DNA from: Haloferula luteola
GTDB taxonomy: Bacteria > Verrucomicrobiota > Verrucomicrobiia > Verrucomicrobiales > Akkermansiaceae
Reading direction: 5' to 3'
Assembly: GCF_014201715.1 (NCBI RefSeq)
Contig: NZ_JACHFD010000018.1
Span: forward strand, 1 to 64,000
DNA: 64,000 bases
Shown here: positions 6,442-18,997 of the stretch, in pieces
How positions within the stretch are numbered: the stretch's first letter is position 1
Layout: each line of letters begins with the position of its first letter
Program-made: the position numbers and the translations under genes
Notes under the pieces: generated by a model
Told to the model about the DNA's origin: nothing
Database searches by the model: none
What the model saw: only the letters and a program-made list of their open reading frames with translations

Positions 6442-9400
6442 CTACTTGGAAAGATAGGATCCACTTGGGCTAAGCCTGAGCCCTTTATTACCCAAGATAA
6501 GGCGCTCTGCGCCTAAGAAGGTCTGACCCACGGTTCTATCCGGCCGCAGGAGCGTAGAAGCTAGTTCTGAGTTCAGCCGAAACGCCGAAGCATCCCTAAT
6601 CTCGTAGCCATCACGAACGGCTTTCCGAAGAATGGATGAGTTCTGGTAATAGTTTGCTCTTGGACTGCCCAAATCGGGAAGATCGTCGAGCAGTGTCTGA
6701 TTACGCGGTATTCCCTTCAAGTCGTCCAGCCTCCCGATGTATTTAACCTTCGGTGCATTTCTTGCGGCGGCCCCGTATCCACCACCTGGGGCGATCGCAC
6801 CAACCAACAACCCCGTTGCAGATATTACCTTATCTAGGTAAGAAGCACAAGGATCCAGAAATGTCGATGCAGCATCGTATATATCATATGCCGAAGTGGC
6901 GACTTCGAAGATCATCCAGGCGATGATCAACGGATGCTCGCCCGTGGGATCAACCAGCTGACAGGGTGTATTCCAAGCATAGGCGTAAAGATTGATTCCT
7001 CCTCCCTCACCAATGGGATCTCTTGAAATCCATCTTGCTGCTCTCGGGTCGTAGGCACGGTACGGAGCCAGATGGAGGCCGCTTGGTTGGTGAGTAAAAT
7101 GCCCCGTGTAGGAAAAATGCGAAATCGGCTGGGCATTGGAAAACTCAACATTTCCCCAAGCATCGTAGGACAAACGTTCTTGCAAGCCACCGGTGGGACT
7201 CAAGAGTTCCCGAATGCTGCCCAGATGATCGAAGGTGTAGAGGTAGGCCTGGGTAGAGCTTCCAGTAAGGTCTTGCATTCCTTGCGCAAGGTAACGGCGC
7301 TGAACCGCCTCCCCGCTACCGTCCCGTTCTTCACAGATTTCCAATCCACACCACAAAAGCGTTCGATTCGAGATCTCAACGCCATTCGACAATTCACGGA
7401 TGCGAACCCGCCGCCCGAGGCCATCATATTCAAACTCGGAACGCCCCGTTCCTTGGTTGATGGCGACGAGCCGGTCTTCCGCGTCCCATTCGTAGCTGGT
7501 TTCTGGGAGGTTGAGGCTGGTTGAGTCCAGCTGGTTGAGTGCGTTGTATCGAAAGTCCTGGGTCGCCCCATCTTCGGTTTCGGTGAGGCGGTTGGCTGCC
7601 GGATCGTAGATCCAGTTGTAGCCCTTGGTCGGCGTGCCGCCTGTCGTGATGGAAGCGGAGGTCAACTGGTCGGCTCCGTCATAGCCAAGGGCCCACACAT
7701 CGGCGGTCGCGCTGCTGGCTCCCGCTTGCTGCGTCCACTGCGTGATTCTCCCGATGGCATCGTAATTGTAGGAAAATTTGGAAACGATGCTGTTGGACGG
7801 GGTGCGGTTGGTGATGGATTGCAGGCGATTGTCCTGACTGTTTCCGTAGTAGTTGAACTGGGCCTTCACTCCGCCGCCATGAGAGACTTGGGAAAGGCGC
7901 GAGGTTGCACCCTCATAGGTGTAGGTGAAGGTGCCCAAGGAGTTGGTCAGCGAAATGAGCCTGCTTGCGGCATCATAGGAAGGAGATTGCGAGATTCCAT
8001 TGATGGCGCGGCTGGTCACTCGGCCCAAGGCATCGTAAGCGTAAGCGATCTCATCGTTGCTCCAAGGACCGTCGATGGTGGCAACCTCATTGGCTCCCAG
8101 GCTGCCAACCGGATGGTAGCTGGTCGTGGTCTCACCAAGACCATCGGTCATTGAGGTTACCCTCTTGAAGAAGGGATCGTAACCGAAGGTGACGGTGGGT
8201 GTGGCGATCTCAGCGTTGGGGAAGAGCTTCGCATGCAGGGTGCCGTCAATATTGTAGCGAAACCGGGTGATTTGCCCCTTTTCATCAATCCGCTGAGACA
8301 ACCGACCGCTCCCGGGTTCGTAGGCAAAGCGAATTCGGGAGCCATCAACATATTCCTTATAATCAACTCGCCCTTGGACGTCCCGGTGCCAACGTGTGGC
8401 CCGTCCCATGGGATCAATCAGGGTTCTCAAGTCGCCGCACTTGCACCACTCGTAGCCGACCGTGCGGTTCTCTGGATCGGTGACGCCGACGAGTTGCCTA
8501 ATCTCATCATATGAGAAGGTGGTCACCCGTCCCAGGCGGTCTCGGGACGAGACGAGGTCAAGATTCTCGTAGGTATTCTCCTCGTAGGTGCCGTCCGGGT
8601 AGTCCACCCTAGTAAGTCGGTCGATGTCGTCGTAGGAGTAGGTGACTGTATAGCCATCGAAATCCGTGATGGTCTGTGTCCGGCCGGCCGAATCGTAGGT
8701 GAAGGTGATCGTGTCTGCCGCTCCGGCCAACGGACCATTGATTGAGACCAAATATCCGTTGGTATCGTAGGAGTAGGCAGTCGTGTCCCTTTCCGGGTCG
8801 GTGGTTGAGGTTAGCTGCCCCCTTGCGTTGTAAGCGAAGGTCGTCGTCTCCCCGGCCGCATTGGTCGCCGCAGTCGGAAGGTGATCGGAATAACCGGAGA
8901 ACGCGGCAAGCGTCTCAAATCCCACAGCCGTTCTGACCTTGATTGCCGTGAGATCGATTCCCTCGACGGCGCCCGTTTGGCTGGAGTCATCATTGTATTC
9001 GAAGACCAGCTCCCTACCCAATGGGTCGATCGTACCCGTGATTTTCCCAGTAACGGGGTGGTAGGAGGCTCTGCCCATGGACCACTGGAGGACACCATCT
9101 TTGTCCTCAACCGCCTTTACCGTCTTCGAAGGCATAGCACTGGTTCCTCCGCCTTCTGCTGATGTCTGACCCGGGTAATTGAACCAAACCCGGTTCTCCA
9201 AAGGAGCTTTGAAACTCGCTAGGACTGAGGTGATCGTATCGTCGTTCGCAGTCCAATTGTAGAGGGTCGCTTTGGAGAAATCTCCAGGAGCCTCGCGCAT
9301 CTGTTTCCGATCCCAGTAGAATGTGTTCCGGTAGCCCAGATTGGTGACCTTCGGCATGAAGCCAATACTTTCGTCGTTAACCGAAATAGTTGTCGGTGCG

Positions 9401-11430
9401 GGGAGTGGCGAGACTCCATCAGCCGGATATCCCGAATAGTCGTTGGCTTCGGCACGCTCGCGATCTCCTTGCGGATTGGTGGCTTCGATGAAGCGCCCCG
9501 GTTCTTCGTTAATACCTGGAAGGTCCCCCCATTTGAAGGTAGTCGTACCGTAGGGTGTGGTTAGCTCAGCGACGTAGTCGGTGTCAGCCGCGTATGAGAA
9601 TTGTGAAACAATGCCTACCGGATCGGTAATGCTCAGCAGCTGCCCGACCGAGGTGTAGGAGAACGTGGAGCGCCGTCCAAACGGATCGGTAATTGAGCGG
9701 ATCTTCGTCGAATCGCCTGGAACTGCAGCACCGGCACCGGGCGTATATGAGAGCGTGGTCTGCTGGCCAATGGCATCGGTGATGGAGATCAGGCGGTTGT
9801 TCCCGTCATACCCCAGGGAAACTGCGTTCCCTTGTGCATCGACAATCTTCGTCAGAAAATACCTTGTCGGAGCTGGTGAATTTGGATGCCCATAGACGAA
9901 CTTGCTACCGTCGGGATTGCTGAACGTGAACTCGGATTCAGTGGGGGACCATGCCAGACGGGGTCTTTCAATGTAGCGTGACAGAAAACGCCCGCTTCCA
10001 GTTTCAAAATTGTAGGTGTAGAATTGGCCATTACCCCAGATAATGTTGGCCGAGGTCGCTGGGACCTCGCCAATTGGAGTTCCCGTTAGCTCCAAGTAGC
10101 TGGAATAACGATGGGTCCATCTGGGCCCGAAGTTTCCCTGCGGTGGCGCGTCTTCAATGACCGAACTCCGCTGATCATACTCAAGGCGAAACGCCACAGG
10201 CGGGCCGACGGGAGGTGCGTAAGAAATGGGAGTGTCAAAGATTTCCAAGCCGGGGTTGAGCAGCCGAAAAGTGTAGTCCGCCATTGGCTGCCCCTGATCT
10301 TGGTTTTTGTTACAAGGATTCTGCTCATCGCCCTCCGCCTCGCGGCCGTGAACACAGTGACTGCCGAAAACGGTCTTTGCCTCCTCGTCTCCGACCAGCT
10401 CGAAGCCATCCGGGATCTCGACCTTCGAGAATGCCAGCAAATACCCTGAGAATTGTTCCTCGAAGGCCTCTGGGTCCATCATCGTATCGACCCGAAGGTG
10501 AACGTCTTTGACCCTCAGTCTGCCTTCCTTTTCCTCGGTCACCGCAGAGTAGTGGTCGAATCTCCAATGCACGATGGAGGGAACCGGGATCGACGCTTGT
10601 GGATCGACGCGCCGATAGATTTGAAGATCCCCATCGCCTTCGAGACTGTGTGCCCGCAATTCGAACAATGAGAGTCCATTAGCAATGAATTCCTTTCCCT
10701 CTTCGGGGTCATGGACATCCGGATGGATCGCCCTGTAACCTTGAGGAACGCAGACCGTATTCGCTGCTGTGAATCCGCAGAAAACGTTCTGCTCTGCTTG
10801 ATTCTCGTGAAACCAGAGTGCGGATTTCGCTTGAATCAGGGCTTCCGAAGCAGCTCCGCCGAGCTTGCGATCCGCTAGTGAAGACACCAGTTCGCGAAGC
10901 TTTTCCCTCTCTCCGAGCCGGGCAAGCTTTTGCAAATAGAGTGCGAGAGCCTTCTCGGCCGTCTGTTTCCCTTCAAGATCGGAAAGAGGCTGGCCCGTGG
11001 TCCAGGCTCGTTCCAGTGTCTTCACCGCGCCGACGAAGTAGCCGTGCCGCCATTCAAGCTCAGCCAGTTCCAATGCCGCCGCGATTTCAACGCGCGCATC
11101 GCTGGTGGCTGCCGCCAGTTTTTGCAAAAGAACTCGATTTTTGGCATTAAACTGACCACCGGATAAAAGGTATTCTTCGATCAGAGGCGAAGTATTTGGA
11201 GGAAAATAGCAGCCCTGTAGAGTGACCTTCGAATCGCGTATCGACGAGCCCGCAGGGGCACGTTCCTCCGTTACAATTTCATTTTCAGTTTGAAATGAAT
11301 CTTCGACCAGGGGTGAAGGGAAGGTTTTTGATATCGATTTCTCAGCTGGAGGTTTGGCTACCCAAAGGGCGGCAACCACTGCCGCCACAAACACAAGAAC
11401 GATAATCGCGGTCTTTGAATGAAACTTCAT
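6442..11430 (-). CDS. RHS/YD-repeat protein with toxin-like C-terminal tip
   Basis: This 1662-residue protein begins with an N-terminal hydrophobic segment (about residues 8-26) that could be a signal anchor. An alpha-helical N-terminal region leads into a long array of YD repeats (for example 'YDxxGRxTxxxxxDG') that in RHS proteins fold into a hollow shell. The RHS core ends with 'DPRAARWISRDPIGEGGG' and 'LVDPTGE' near residue 1490. After this conserved boundary comes a tip of about 165 residues: a hydrophobic pre-toxin stretch, then a domain containing 'RNQTLLDDLPDLGSPRAN' and 'YQNSSILRKAV'. Tips of this kind are the variable toxin part of RHS proteins. I cannot name the toxin activity. A candidate immunity gene follows directly. 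No VgrG or other secretion genes are nearby. Confidence 0.85.
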   Translation of the reverse strand: MKFHSKTAIIVLVFVAAVVAALWVAKPPAEKSISKTFPSPLVEDSFQTENEIVTEERAPAGSSIRDSKVTLQGCYFPPNTSPLIEEYLLSGGQFNAKNRVLLQKLAAATSDARVEIAAALELAELEWRHGYFVGAVKTLERAWTTGQPLSDLEGKQTAEKALALYLQKLARLGEREKLRELVSSLADRKLGGAASEALIQAKSALWFHENQAEQNVFCGFTAANTVCVPQGYRAIHPDVHDPEEGKEFIANGLSLFELRAHSLEGDGDLQIYRRVDPQASIPVPSIVHWRFDHYSAVTEEKEGRLRVKDVHLRVDTMMDPEAFEEQFSGYLLAFSKVEIPDGFELVGDEEAKTVFGSHCVHGREAEGDEQNPCNKNQDQGQPMADYTFRLLNPGLEIFDTPISYAPPVGPPVAFRLEYDQRSSVIEDAPPQGNFGPRWTHRYSSYLELTGTPIGEVPATSANIIWGNGQFYTYNFETGSGRFLSRYIERPRLAWSPTESEFTFSNPDGSKFVYGHPNSPAPTRYFLTKIVDAQGNAVSLGYDGNNRLISITDAIGQQTTLSYTPGAGAAVPGDSTKIRSITDPFGRRSTFSYTSVGQLLSITDPVGIVSQFSYAADTDYVAELTTPYGTTTFKWGDLPGINEEPGRFIEATNPQGDRERAEANDYSGYPADGVSPLPAPTTISVNDESIGFMPKVTNLGYRNTFYWDRKQMREAPGDFSKATLYNWTANDDTITSVLASFKAPLENRVWFNYPGQTSAEGGGTSAMPSKTVKAVEDKDGVLQWSMGRASYHPVTGKITGTIDPLGRELVFEYNDDSSQTGAVEGIDLTAIKVRTAVGFETLAAFSGYSDHLPTAATNAAGETTTFAYNARGQLTSTTDPERDTTAYSYDTNGYLVSINGPLAGAADTITFTYDSAGRTQTITDFDGYTVTYSYDDIDRLTRVDYPDGTYEENTYENLDLVSSRDRLGRVTTFSYDEIRQLVGVTDPENRTVGYEWCKCGDLRTLIDPMGRATRWHRDVQGRVDYKEYVDGSRIRFAYEPGSGRLSQRIDEKGQITRFRYNIDGTLHAKLFPNAEIATPTVTFGYDPFFKRVTSMTDGLGETTTSYHPVGSLGANEVATIDGPWSNDEIAYAYDALGRVTSRAINGISQSPSYDAASRLISLTNSLGTFTYTYEGATSRLSQVSHGGGVKAQFNYYGNSQDNRLQSITNRTPSNSIVSKFSYNYDAIGRITQWTQQAGASSATADVWALGYDGADQLTSASITTGGTPTKGYNWIYDPAANRLTETEDGATQDFRYNALNQLDSTSLNLPETSYEWDAEDRLVAINQGTGRSEFEYDGLGRRVRIRELSNGVEISNRTLLWCGLEICEERDGSGEAVQRRYLAQGMQDLTGSSTQAYLYTFDHLGSIRELLSPTGGLQERLSYDAWGNVEFSNAQPISHFSYTGHFTHQPSGLHLAPYRAYDPRAARWISRDPIGEGGGINLYAYAWNTPCQLVDPTGEHPLIIAWMIFEVATSAYDIYDAASTFLDPCASYLDKVISATGLLVGAIAPGGGYGAAARNAPKVKYIGRLDDLKGIPRNQTLLDDLPDLGSPRANYYQNSSILRKAVRDGYEIRDASAFRLNSELASTLLRPDRTVGQTFLGAERLILGNKGLRLSPSGSYLSK

Positions 11431-15354: not shown

Positions 15355-15492
15355 TCAGTCGGGTGCTTGATAGAGAACCTTAACTATCGAGGTATCATTA
15401 CCGATGCTGAAGGGCTCTTGGGTGTTTTCGAGTAGGCCCCATAAAGCCAGTTCGAGAAAACTCCCACGCGTCTCAATGGCGCGTTCCGTCAA
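15355..15492 (-). CDS. Tiny ORF, 45 residues, overlapping an upstream tiny ORF
   Basis: The frame begins at a TTG (TERAIETRGSFLELALWG...) and ends with KVLYQAPD. It overlaps the end of the 39-residue ORF by 20 bases in another frame, so it could be translationally coupled. Alternatively the two could be halves of one gene broken by a frameshift: the residues on both sides look like real protein. No domain is recognised. Confidence 0.35.
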   Translation of the reverse strand: MTERAIETRGSFLELALWGLLENTQEPFSIGNDTSIVKVLYQAPD

Positions 15493-15592
15493 TCGTCCAG
15501 GCCAAGAGGAGTTCGCTCTGCTCATCCGGGCACTGCTCCAGCCACTCCAGAGCGAGCATCAGCCTGGCCGACGGGATGAATTGATCGGGCAT
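15473..15592 (-). CDS. Tiny ORF, 39 residues, with strong ribosome binding site
   Basis: The ATG at 15590-15592 is preceded by GGAGGAG with a seven-base spacer, the best Shine-Dalgarno sequence in this part of the window. The product (MPDQFIPSARLMLALEWLEQ, then CPDEQSELLLAW) is acidic and probably helical. It lies downstream of the small recombinase and outside its left inverted site. No homologue is known to me. A second small frame overlaps its 3' end. Confidence 0.45.
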   Translation of the reverse strand: MPDQFIPSARLMLALEWLEQCPDEQSELLLAWTIDGTRH

Positions 15593-15701
15593 TCGACTTC
15601 TCCTCCAAAAATCCGGGAACGCAACGGCAACGAAGGTGACGATACATCCGATCTGATCTCCTTCGCGCCATTACGCCCAAAAGGCGGGTCGTGTGTAGGG
15701 G

Positions 15702-15721
15702 GCCGGGGATCGATACCCGGC
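15702..15721. repeat. Perfect stem-loop
   Basis: GCCGGG at 15702-15707 and CCCGGC at 15716-15721 form a perfect six-base stem around GATCGATA. An outer pair GGCGGG (15683-15688) with CCCGCC (15729-15734) can extend it into a larger structure. It lies between the small recombinase and the tiny ORFs, so it could be a leader or processing structure. There is no T-run after it. Confidence 0.35.
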
Positions 15722-15782
15722 TATTTACCCCGCCTAATTCTTTTCCTTTCCACCGTCATCACATGGCGGCGATTTCCTCTTG

Positions 15783-15812
15783 AAAGTGAACGAAATAAGG
15801 ATTCTGTTCACT
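15783..15812. repeat. Left dif-like inverted site flanking the small recombinase
   Basis: Bases 15783-15810 match the reverse complement of 16478-16505 at 27 of 28 positions. The site has recombination-site architecture: an 11-base arm AGTGAACGAAA (15785-15795), a six-base centre TAAGGA, and an 11-base arm TTCTGTTCACT (15802-15812). The two arms are inverted copies of each other at nine of 11 positions. The right arm resembles the XerD-binding half of dif sites, TTATGTTAAAT. It lies downstream of the recombinase stop. Confidence 0.8.
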
Positions 15813-15886
15813 CCTTCAATCATACCCGATTCGCGGCCTCTTCCTCAAGGAAAATGATTCTACGCCTACCATCGTAGGTAGCCCCC

Positions 15887-16465
15887 TCATGACTTTGGGC
15901 AAGGGCCACCTCCGATCCAGATTTTGTGGAATTTGCCGCGAATGTCCTCGGTGATGTGGGTGGTGTAGATCGCGGTGGTTTCAGGTCGTTTGTGACCAAG
16001 CAGGCCCTGAATGTCCCCCTGGAACAGACCAATGGACACGCAGCCGATTGCGTAGCCGTGGCGCAAACCCTTGGGCGTTGCTTTGATGCCGCTTATCCCC
16101 GCTGAGTCCATACACCATTTCACGAGCTTCCATCCCGTTGTCCGGCCAAAGTCAAAAAGACGGCCATCCTCTAAGGTGGGTAGCACCATGAGAGCCTCGA
16201 TCAGAGAGTCTTGCACCGGGACAGGGCGATAGTTGACCTCTCCCCGCTGCTTGAGCGTCAGGAAGACAAGAGCACCACCGCCAACATCCACGTGAGAGCG
16301 CCGCAGAGAAAGGGCTTCGGAGATCCTGCAACCCGTGTTGAGCAGCACCAAGCAAAAGAGCTGATGCTTCAAATTGGGCAATTTTGAGGCCGCCTCACCA
16401 AAGGCCAACCTCTCGGCAAACGAGACATATTTTCGATCACCTCTGCCGTCATATAACGACCTCAT
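15887..16465 (-). CDS. Small tyrosine recombinase, catalytic domain only
   Basis: The start chosen is the second ATG: the Shine-Dalgarno AGGAGG sits seven bases before it but only one base before the first ATG at 16471. The 192-residue product has a tyrosine recombinase catalytic domain: arginine in 'NTGCRISEAL', lysine in 'TLKQRG', 'TPKGLRHG' for the second arginine, histidine in 'LLGHKRPETT', and tyrosine in 'AIYTTH'. The first histidine of the usual HxxR box is lysine (KGLR), as I recall for one subgroup of bacterial recombinases. It lacks the N-terminal core-binding domain, like the FimB/FimE invertases of similar length. It is framed by near-perfect inverted dif-like sites and may invert or mobilise itself. 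Confidence 0.85.
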   Translation of the reverse strand: MRSLYDGRGDRKYVSFAERLAFGEAASKLPNLKHQLFCLVLLNTGCRISEALSLRRSHVDVGGGALVFLTLKQRGEVNYRPVPVQDSLIEALMVLPTLEDGRLFDFGRTTGWKLVKWCMDSAGISGIKATPKGLRHGYAIGCVSIGLFQGDIQGLLGHKRPETTAIYTTHITEDIRGKFHKIWIGGGPCPKS

Positions 16466-16475
16466 TTTCATCCCT

Positions 16476-16505
16476 CCTGAACAGAATCCTTATTCCGTTC
16501 ACTTT
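16476..16505. repeat. Right dif-like inverted site, overlapping recombinase leader
   Basis: This is the inverted partner of the site at 15783-15812. Read on the minus strand it gives arm AGTGAACGGAA, centre TAAGGA and arm TTCTGTTCAGG. The final bases run into the recombinase Shine-Dalgarno sequence (AGGAGG). Recombination between the two sites would therefore invert about 0.7 kb carrying the recombinase and its ribosome binding site, and would separate the gene from any promoter outside. Confidence 0.8.
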
Positions 16506-16563
16506 ATCGCATACAAAGCACAAAATCATCAAATCACTTATAATCATTACCATACAGAAGATT

Positions 16564-16770
16564 CTGGGAGAAAACGGACCGCTATCAGAGCTTTGCAGCG
16601 GAGGCCAGTGCCCCGCAGTGATCCTGACTGATGGAGAAAATGCTTACGTTCAAGGCAACCGGCTCAACTCCGAAGAGCGGGCCCGATTATCCGCGCCAGA
16701 AGGAGAAGACTTCGTTGCAATTCCCCTCACCACTTTAAAGAGGATTGCGCTTCAAGTCGGGGAGAGCTGA
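16564..16770 (+). CDS. Small cysteine-containing protein with non-canonical start
   Basis: The frame contains a compact domain: 'CSGGQCPAVILTDGENAYVQG' without the last residue, then 'EGEDFVAIPLTTLKRIAL'. This recalls small conserved proteins with a CxxxxCP motif, a 'VQG' strand and a C-terminal 'IP' helix that sit beside regulators in other bacteria; the match is from memory. No ATG, GTG or TTG lies close upstream. CTG at 16564 is a guess, giving 68 residues. The only in-frame ATG (16384) is inside the recombinase gene. A TATAAT box is visible at 16539-16544. Its stop overlaps the convergent gene by 19 bases. Confidence 0.45.
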   Translation: MGENGPLSELCSGGQCPAVILTDGENAYVQGNRLNSEERARLSAPEGEDFVAIPLTTLKRIALQVGES

Positions 16771-17231
16771 TCACTTTCCTCGTCAGCCGAGGGAGGCTCC
16801 TTCACGGAGTCTCCCTTTTTCTCTCCATAGATTTCTCGGTTGAGGAAGTCGCGGAAATCAGGCGCGTAAAATTCCTCGTGTTGAGTCCAATGTCTCCGGA
16901 TTTCTGGATTGCTCATGAAATCCCTGATGTCATCGACAGTGCTCGCCCACTCAGATCGAGTGAAAAGGCGCCTTTGATCGAAGATGACCATCGTGTGATT
17001 GATCCAGATTTGCCGGAAGCGTCTTTGACGCTGATCTTCACCCGAATTGCCGCTGATTGCTTCAAGAAGATCGGGGTTGTCGATAGCCTTGAATAGGAGG
17101 CTTGTCGTGCGGTCGTATTGCTTCGCTCTCGCATCGGTCTTTGCCTGCTGGCGCGTCCAGTGCTGTTGAACGGCGAGCGACAGTAAAGCCACCACCACCG
17201 AAATCACCGCTATCCACTCTGGAATTCCCAA
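16752..17231 (-). CDS. Membrane-anchored protein of unknown function
   Basis: A 159-residue protein with one N-terminal transmembrane helix (about residues 5-22, 'WIAVISVVVALLSLAVQQHW') followed by a charged cytoplasmic or periplasmic domain with many arginines and tryptophans. The start is TTG, supported by GAGGGAG about seven bases upstream. The layout resembles DUF-type anchored helical proteins found in accessory regions, but no family can be named with confidence. It runs opposite to the excisionase-integrase pair and converges with the small cysteine protein. Confidence 0.6.
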   Translation of the reverse strand: MGIPEWIAVISVVVALLSLAVQQHWTRQQAKTDARAKQYDRTTSLLFKAIDNPDLLEAISGNSGEDQRQRRFRQIWINHTMVIFDQRRLFTRSEWASTVDDIRDFMSNPEIRRHWTQHEEFYAPDFRDFLNREIYGEKKGDSVKEPPSADEESDQLSPT

Positions 17232-17399
17232 ATCTCATCTCCCTCATTTGATTCCAATATCGAATCAAATTTAACTGACTTGCGTGGCTGAAGCAAGACG
17301 GTCCAGGGAAGCAAATCCTCGGCGGCTCCGGCCATGAAGCATTTCTGTGCGTATTTCTCATTGATGCCACCCATCAGGAACATCGAACCGCAGAATACC

Positions 17400-17591
17400 A
17401 TGGAACACACGGAAGACCGTTTGATCTCATTGGCGCAAGCCGGGGAGCGCCTGTCCCTCTCCAAGCGCGCCATTTACCGGCTCATTGCCAAAGGCGATTT
17501 GCCACGTCCTGTCAAAGTTGGCGGTGCCACGCGGCTCTACGCCAGCGACATCACCCACTATCTCGTCAATCTAAAATCCGCGCGGAAATGA
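17400..17591 (+). CDS. AlpA/excisionase-like helix-turn-helix protein
   Basis: A 63-residue DNA-binding protein starting at the ATG of MEHTEDRLISL. The winged helix-turn-helix 'SLAQAGERLSLSKRAIYRLI' followed by 'GDLPRPVKVGGATRLY' is typical of AlpA/MerR-like excisionases. Its stop overlaps the integrase start as ATGA, so the two are translationally coupled. It probably controls excision of the element or integrase expression. Confidence 0.8.
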   Translation: MEHTEDRLISLAQAGERLSLSKRAIYRLIAKGDLPRPVKVGGATRLYASDITHYLVNLKSARK

Positions 17592-18958
17592 TCTTTCACG
17601 TCTACAAAAAGAAGCGCACCCGCAAGGGCAAGACAGCAGTCGACCGGTTGTATCGCGGTCGCTACCGACTCGAAGGTGATCTCGCAGTTTCAGAGGTTCC
17701 TCTGGATACCCCTGACAAACAGGTGGCCGAGCAGAAGCTTCGCGAGATTGTCAGAGAGAAAGAAAGAGAACGCGCAGGGCTCATAGCACCGAAGCTTGAG
17801 AGGGAGTCGGCCAAGCGTCCTTTGTCCGAGCATCTGGAGGAATTCATCGCGGACCTCGCGGTTAAAGGGCGGGCAGAGCACTACTACAGGCTGATCCGTA
17901 GCCGCGTGTCCATTCTCCTCAAGTCCTGCGGCTGGAGGGTCGCTAGCGACATCTCACCGGATGGTTTCGTTCGGTGGCGCTCAAAACAGCAGGCGGCTCC
18001 CAAAACGCTGAACGAGTATTTGAACGCGATGCACACCTTTCTTGGCTGGATGGTGAAGCAGCGCCGCATCCAGGACAATCCGCTCCGATTGGTCGAGAAG
18101 GTCGACATTCGGGGGCGCCAACAAAAGCGCCGGGCGATTTCCGATGCCGAGTTCGACCGGCTGCTGGCCGTGTCTGAGGACTACCGTCTGCTCTACATCA
18201 TGGCAATCTACACCGGGCTGCGCCTTGGTGAGCTTCTCGGCATCGTCTGGTCGGAGGTCCATCTCGGCGAGGATGAGCGCCCACGCATCGTCATTCCCGC
18301 TGAACGCACCAAGAACCGTAGGGAAGCCGTCGTGCCTCTCCACCCGAAGTTACGAGATTGCTTGCAGATCACTGCAAATGGAGCACGAAACTCCGATCTC
18401 ATTTTTCCTCAGTATGCCCATCCGGACCGTCGGTTCAGGCGACATCTCAAGGAAGCAGGGATTCCCGCCATCGATGGCACCGGCCGGAAGCTCGACTTCC
18501 ACTCCTTTCGCTACACATTCGCGACCCGCCTGGCCCGCAAAGGAGTTTCACAGCGGCTTGCTCAGGAATTGATGCGCCACAGTGATCCTCGATTGACGGC
18601 AAACCTCTACACCGACGTCAACCAGCTTCCAACCTTCGAAGCGGTGAATTCGCTGGACTGGTTTGAGGACGGGAAACCGTCTCGACGTGGTCCACAAATA
18701 GGTCCACAAAACCGAGTCTCTGCGGGGCAAAATCTGTCTCAGATCGGCACAGAAAACCTCATCAAAATCCCTCTATCAGTCACTGGCAATGAGACGATTA
18801 CTCTCAATTTGTCACCTTGTGACACGAAACGAATGATGGTCGGGGTGGCGGGATTCGAACCCACGGCCTCTTCGTCCCGAACGAAGCGCGCTACCAGGCT
18901 GCGCCACACCCCGAAAAAAATGGCGCACCCGCAGGGATTCGAACCCCAAACCTTCTGA
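17588..18958 (+). CDS. Tyrosine-type site-specific integrase
   Basis: A 456-residue integrase: an N-terminal basic region, a core-binding domain (about 75-170), and a catalytic domain (about 180-355). The catalytic domain carries 'YTGLRLGEL', '[13 protein letters not shown]', '[13 protein letters not shown]', '[10 protein letters not shown]' and 'ANLYTDV', so the R-K-H-R-H-Y set is complete. About 80 extra residues follow. The last 40 or so, including '[20 protein letters not shown]', are simply the antisense translation of the tRNA-Pro gene and the start of the tRNA-Arg gene. The genuine element-encoded end is therefore probably near the tRNA. The arrangement suggests that the element integrated into the 3' end of tRNA-Pro and the reading frame now ends in host sequence. 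Confidence 0.9.
18837..18913 (-). tRNA. tRNA-Pro (CGG)
   Basis: The minus strand begins CGGGGTGTGGCGCAGCCTGG and forms a full cloverleaf. The seven-base acceptor stem CGGGGTG pairs with CACCCCG, and the anticodon stem CTTCG/CGAAG encloses the loop TTCGGGA with anticodon CGG. The T-loop is GGTTCGAATCC. The discriminator A and a CCA end are encoded at 18837-18840. The anticodon arm matches the E. coli proK pattern. Its 3' end faces the integrase, making it the likely attachment site. Confidence 0.95.
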
Positions 18959-18997
18959 TCCGTAGTCAGATGCTCTATCCAATTGAGCTACGGGTGC
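18921..18997 (-). tRNA. tRNA-Arg (ACG)
   Basis: The minus strand begins GCACCCGTAGCTCAATTGGA and forms a full cloverleaf. Acceptor stem GCACCCG pairs with CGGGTGC, anticodon stem TCTGA/TCAGA encloses CTACGGA with anticodon ACG, and the T-loop is TTCGAAT. Discriminator G and an encoded CCA lie at 18921-18924. Only seven bases separate it from the tRNA-Pro gene, so both are probably one transcript. Confidence 0.95.

Follow-up and report, generated by a model that had tools for sequence, protein, structure and literature searches.

A Tyrosine Recombinase Gene Bracketed by Inverted loxP/dif-like Sites in Haloferula luteola: Comparative Evidence for a Probable Self-Encoded Invertible Module

The window analyzed here is a 64,000-nucleotide stretch of DNA from the verrucomicrobial bacterium Haloferula luteola (contig NZ_JACHFD010000018.1, positions 1 to 64,000). 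It contains two 28-nt sequences facing each other as an inverted repeat: a distal, or downstream, putative recombination site on the plus strand (15783–15810) and an upstream site on the minus strand (16478–16505), separated by 667 nt and matching at 27 of 28 positions (96% complementary). Flanks with shuffled letters reached the score of this repeat in 0 of 100 trials. Between the two arms lies one clear gene, which encodes a tyrosine recombinase of 194 amino acids on the minus strand (15887–16471), and the upstream site sits 6 bp before its start, next to the ribosome binding site. The initial annotation, made from the letters alone, had described two near-identical inverted sites around a single tyrosine recombinase reduced to its catalytic domain, and this was confirmed, as was the layout of each site, in which the inverted arms GTGAACGGAA and TTCTGTTCAC flank the core TAAGGA. 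The suggested link between the window site and the dif site of the species fared less well, since an E. coli-like dif pattern matched nothing in the H. luteola genome at up to three mismatches. A promoter scan of 15400–17000 returned one site, with 0.8 expected.

The recombinase matches the Pfam family PF00589 (Phage_integrase) over residues 33–172, with an E-value of 4e-12. This is its only Pfam match at an E-value of 0.01, and hence the protein has no serine recombinase domain; membership of the Hin family of serine invertases was rejected on these grounds. Profile searches retrieved XerC-like, XerA, XerD, and XerH chains, and the PHROGs matches were to general integrase families only. Five residues, R49, K74, R137, H160, and Y169, are invariant across 20 recombinase sequences, and we take them to be the catalytic R-K-R-H-Y residues of tyrosine recombinases. 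The first box-II residue is a lysine (KGLRH), a position occupied by histidine in Xer proteins. A structure modeled with AlphaFold2 on the basis of 20 relatives (pLDDT 87.4, pTM 0.86) found its best structural match in XerH bound to difH (Z 18.3 over 160 residues, rmsd 2.4), followed by XerA, HP1 integrase, and IntI4, with Cre at Z 13.5; this fold listing was not used for excluding any family. By its Pfam family, catalytic residues, and fold match, the window protein is a member of the tyrosine recombinase superfamily with an Xer-like fold.

The genes surrounding the inverted pair differ between two sub-groups of the recombinase family. Just beyond the upstream site, and outside the pair, the window, like its sub-group, carries a plus-strand gene for a small partner protein of ~74 amino acids with a CNGGxCP motif (16546–16767). 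This small protein occurs at 10 places in 336 genomes of the order (E ≤ 1e-6), all 10 of them beside these recombinases, and it may regulate the recombinase. At its usual start codon, the window gene reads ATT, in contrast to the ATG of the second copy in the same genome (described below) and of the aligned relatives, and its start may have been lost or moved. The outer flank in the window's sub-group is a minus-strand gene for a DUF6082 protein (16752–17231), and past the distal site a short, outward-reading open reading frame on the minus strand (15473–15592, beginning MPDQFIPSARLMLALEWLEQ), similar in the second copy, represents a putative gene. In the other sub-group, the flank is a gene of 281 amino acids to which Pfam assigns no family. 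A virB5-like label for one flank gene is not adopted, Pfam having given that gene no family. It was found at 17 places, 14 of them beside a recombinase, and one further place lies at a contig end that shows a site and the start of a recombinase. The 281-aa genes of genomes G519 and G468 have no repeat in the preceding 330 bp and no family member nearby (best score 57 bits in 19 kb). At loci L220 and L224, the reading frame of the 281-aa gene begins within or before the site.

Farther out, at window positions 17334–18997, come an AlpA-like helix-turn-helix gene and a gene for a tyrosine integrase of 456 amino acids; the 3′ end of the latter overlaps genes for tRNA-Pro and tRNA-Arg on the opposite strand. 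The unit thus lies some 1 kb from the integrase-bearing end of what is likely an integrative element; a repeat of the neighboring tRNA genes was not found within the window. A similar integrase lies near the module at L055, and a 1662-aa protein that resembles RHS/YD-repeat proteins by eye is encoded near the module region, at window positions 6442–11430. Neighboring relaxase-, ParA-, and integrase-like genes, recognized by eye, suggest that the modules ride on mobile elements.

The H. luteola assembly (84 contigs, 95.5% complete) contains four such sites at up to three mismatches, namely the window pair and the same pair on contig C3, where it encloses a second recombinase 97% identical to that of the window. 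A third recombinase (46% identity), on contig C38, has its own pair of different sequence, and a fourth tyrosine recombinase is distant (33%, E = 2e-6). The initial annotation had offered, as one option, a single-gene mobile unit, which would resemble an insertion sequence with the 28-bp inverted repeats as its ends. The two copies in this genome, and the two or three recombinases in several others, are what such a unit would produce. However, the window copy and that on C3 are homologous beyond the repeats on both sides (window positions 15417–16659 at 93% and 17100–17334 at 94%), so the duplicated stretch did not end at the repeats, and copies bounded by the repeats in different contexts were not what this genome showed. 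The neighbor genes are, moreover, constant within each sub-group, other family members enclose additional cargo, and inverted tyrosine-recombinase sites do not, by the established mechanism, excise what they enclose. The idea of a transposable single gene is thus largely refuted, and we regard it as very improbable.

A profile search of 384 genomes of the class gave 21 recombinase places in 15 genomes. A flanking inverted pair was detected by automatic score at 16 of these 21 (0 of 60 shuffles in each case); two more, L038 and L039, looked paired by eye and have an identical core, with non-significant automatic p-values of 0.17 and 0.67, and at the last three, the inverted partner is found farther downstream, 0.85, 3.9, and 8.4 kb beyond the gene. 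Searching 336 genomes of the order added 12 further places, for 33 class and order relatives. In this combined set, 29 of 32 places exceed the pair thresholds, defined as a near score of at least 13 or a far score of at least 15. A null in which the upstream side of one locus was scored against the downstream side of another passed these thresholds in 33 of 1190 near and 5 of 359 far comparisons, figures that overestimate chance because the mismatched loci contain related sites. L068, which fell below the profile cut-off in the threshold scoring, has a strong pair in the shuffle test, bringing the total to 30 of 33, or 32 of 33 with L038 and L039 accepted by eye; L221 is then the sole relative in which no pair was found. 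A search of 68 genomes from the family of G502 yielded no new places.

The pair is less regular in more distant recombinases. The 88 recombinases of the outside set came from viral loci (the best 11 of 37) and from the 80 loci retained out of 302 in the genome scan, with the duplicates L089, L092, L108, and L122 removed, as well as L088, which is below the profile cut-off. A pair is present in 19 of these 88 after removal of L096, which scores above threshold with a repeat that is hardly palindromic and was excluded from the 49 pairs. Paired members outside the first set include Alphaproteobacteria, Magnetococcales, and a gammaproteobacterium. None of the best 11 of 37 viral loci (L149–L159) has a pair at threshold, the Acetobacteraceae plasmid relatives have no detectable pair, and eight plasmid stretches from Shewanella, Roseomonas, Desulfosarcina, and Sedimenticola, taken from 37 matching plasmid records, gave no clear bracketing pair. 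Recombinases that lack the flanking repeats, which the initial annotation had named as evidence against a self-inverting unit, therefore exist among distant Acetobacteraceae plasmid relatives, and amount to only 1 of 33 class and order relatives (3 of 33 if the pairs seen by eye are left aside). Mapped onto a FastTree phylogeny of 120 recombinases, the presence or absence of the pair requires 10 changes.

Several loci depart from the common layout. L128 has two sites 175 bp apart, both upstream, and at L144 an inverted pair bounds 6.1 kb of cargo upstream with the recombinase outside, possibly a variant with a stationary recombinase. The Shewanella plasmid pSHE-2, which carries a relative of the recombinase (L188, 3729–10206), has TTTTTGCAATGCAAAA-type repeats in both orientations, which may belong to another module system; one pair of them surrounds toxin–antitoxin genes. 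A second repeated sequence, TTGATTNTGTAACTTNTTCAA-like, was seen on the Shewanella plasmids at L186 (394–2136) and L190 (8711–19677), which also bear a gene annotated as a phage integrase N-terminal domain.

Site sequence varies greatly between loci, while the core is common to both sites of a locus. In 48 pairs from both sets, the arms contained 153 mismatches and the core (within three positions of the center) none. To remove the bias of finding pairs by exact seeds, the count was repeated on the 33 pairs that one arm alone suffices to detect, with the same outcome: no mismatch in the core against 78 in the arms (binomial p ~1e-10, relatedness ignored). Strand exchange by a tyrosine recombinase demands like cores in the two recombining sites, an established feature of the mechanism, and identical cores within pairs are thus what recombination between the two sites of a locus would predict.

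An inversion at such sites can be recognized in two genomes of one genus, G452 (L220) and G502 (L224), which have the locus in common. In a comparison of the two, the DNA from site to site aligns in direct orientation (81.5% over 682 bp), whereas five blocks of the flanks align in reverse (67 to 77%); the breakpoints lie within the 29-bp sites. The outer half-sites, TGAACC and TGAAAC, each keep their own flank in both loci; because these markers stay with the flanks, the exchange must lie farther in, at or beyond the core. The swap at L224 is also seen against L219 and L054, and the half-site comparison uses L220, L219, and L054, the rows for L059, L058, and L229 being partly artifacts. Judged from these alignments, the L224 arrangement is a natural inversion with its junctions in the sites, in a relative of the window unit and in a single draft genome (87% complete, ~370 contigs). 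The flank genes, counted after removal of duplicates, show the same: the 281-aa gene is upstream of the recombinase at 13 loci, with L224 the one locus where it is downstream, and at all 15 loci with the small-protein flank, this flank is upstream (944 bp away at L067). The prevailing orientation thus holds in 28 of 29 orientable loci, L224 alone being flipped, which means that inversion is rare or that one state is favored.

These data bear on a reading without recombination, in which the repeats serve only as operators for transcriptional control by the recombinase or by a different regulator. Such a reading is favored by the upstream site, which directly precedes the start codon in the examined pairs, and is opposed by a second site past the 3′ end of the gene with the same asymmetric core and by cores free of mismatches pair after pair. 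The inversion at L224 refutes purely regulatory repeats for the family, unless it is an assembly error, and we consider this explanation highly improbable.

The self-inverting unit proposed in the initial annotation is supported by the comparison. Across the family, aligned genomes display conserved pair anatomy, the rule of identical cores, and one natural inversion in a relative, as well as cargo between sites, discussed below. We consider it quite probable that the locus represents an invertible module that encodes its own recombinase and has loxP/dif-like sites. In this reading, the recombinase would act on the two 28-bp sites that surround its gene in inverted orientation, each with inverted arms about an asymmetric core of 6 bp; reciprocal exchange of strands within these identical cores would flip the intervening DNA. 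The enclosed recombinase is presumably the acting enzyme, and the window copy may be active. The flip may change how the recombinase or the flank genes facing outward are expressed.

The pair encloses more than the recombinase in 5 of the 33 class and order loci, and the cargo includes anti-phage systems. L053 encloses Lamassu genes (LmuB, 4e-126; LmuA, 2e-46; LmuC, 2e-10) and L056 Gabija genes (GajA, 2e-223; GajB, 3e-203) plus further genes. The cargo is a Ppl-like protein (1.5e-41) at L226, an AAA_14/DUF4143 protein at L223, and, at L061, a PIN protein beside an open reading frame that appears AbrB-like by eye. In the other set, L069, L090, and L116 each enclose a single gene without a Pfam family, and L126 has Gabija genes between weak sites (score 13.0, below threshold, and excluded from the pair count). 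Cargo genes point in either direction. Since defense or toxin genes lie inside the same pair in some relatives, the pair marks the edges of a module with changeable content.

The recombinase and the outer flank also differ in their degree of conservation. The window and L050 share 97% identity in the recombinase and 61% in the DUF6082 protein, while for the window and L051 the values are 46% and 76%; L053 and L056 have 72% and 42%, and L055 and L057 have 88% and 33% (the latter over 88 aa only). Alignment lengths vary in this comparison, and the L055 figures are weaker because its DUF6082 open reading frame is short (55–97 aa aligned). On these identities, the recombinase and outer-flank genes have separate histories. 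A local DNA alignment of L053 and the window reaches no farther than the inner edge of the upstream site, which is suggestive, and only suggestive, of exchange there.

Such observations could mean that exchange of modules is the main function, with the inverted pair serving as an exchange slot for recombinase-mediated cassette exchange (RMCE) via cointegrates and inversion as a by-product. The variable cargo between matching sites, the separate histories, the end of the L053 alignment, and the nearly fixed orientation all point that way. However, near-identical backbones with swapped cargo were not found; the end of an alignment at a site could equally mean different rates of change; and homology crosses the sites between the window and L050 and between L055 and L057, explicable by ordinary homologous recombination, which must therefore contribute. 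We regard exchange as the main function as a tentative alternative, less probable than an invertible module. Within the invertible-module reading, content would change when matching sites on two molecules recombine, a route already proposed for the dif modules of Acinetobacter, and exchange of this kind is plausible and the most likely route of content change.

Known site-specific recombination systems resemble this family in part. XerH/difH and Cre/loxP each employ a single recombinase on palindrome-like sites with a short core; the window model has its best structural match in the XerH–difH complex and matches Cre as well. Unlike XerH and Cre, the window protein has no N-terminal core-binding domain, and unlike in XerH/difH and Cre/loxP, the sites form inverted pairs around the recombinase's own gene. 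Hin belongs to the serine recombinases and works with an enhancer and a promoter switch, whereas the window enzyme is of the Xer-like tyrosine type, with no known promoter switch and with optional defense cargo in its family. The recombinase gene of the Salmonella Hin system is reported to lie within the invertible segment (PMC5903667), and the recombinase genes of the window family likewise lie inside a segment bounded by inverted sites; both orientations, with junctions in the sites, occur in the relatives L220 and L224. A tyrosine recombinase is also encoded within the pneumococcal cod locus, where PsrA recombines inverted repeats of its own locus and inverts between the hsdS genes of one restriction–modification locus via several repeats (PMC7096588). 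We propose a similar arrangement here, with a tyrosine recombinase encoded in the very locus that it rearranges; unlike those at the cod locus, the sites bracket the recombinase itself, and the cores are locus-specific.

A close parallel is with the dif (pdif) modules of Acinetobacter, which have dif-like sites with a 6-bp spacer at their boundaries, in inverse orientation to each other, recombine where spacers are identical or nearly so, carry toxin–antitoxin cargo, and undergo inversions, with replacement through cointegrates proposed (PMC13141974). Host XerC/XerD are taken there to act on two unlike arms, and the modules are stacked, with alternating C and D types, and are called unique to Acinetobacter (PMC13141974). 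Like these, the sites of the window family are inversely oriented, bounding, and alike in core. Unlike the Acinetobacter modules as described there, each encloses its own recombinase, the arms are alike, the pairs stand alone, and they occur in Verrucomicrobiota and Alphaproteobacteria, among others. No array of the Acinetobacter style, with alternating C and D modules on Rep_3/OrfX plasmids, was seen, the four sites of the H. luteola genome forming two separate pairs, and a search of 19 stretches for a third site beside a pair, at up to six mismatches, found none. The enclosed recombinase argues against host XerC/XerD as the enzymes that move the sites. No tyrosine recombinase module with inverted sites enclosing Lamassu or Gabija appeared among the open-access PMC matches listed.

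A broader proposal, which we hold to be doubtful and somewhat less probable even than exchange as the main function, is that widespread, self-mobilizing, inverted-site modules trade anti-phage systems between plasmids and integrative elements through natural RMCE. If true, each module would bring its own Xer-like recombinase, its inverted sites would block self-excision, and matching cores would act as address codes for swappable modules. The movement of dif modules and defense genes as single units is only partly understood, and the module family offers a compact system for direct tests of both inversion and module exchange. Dozens of natural recombinase–site pairs are at hand in the family, and they may serve as recombination tools.
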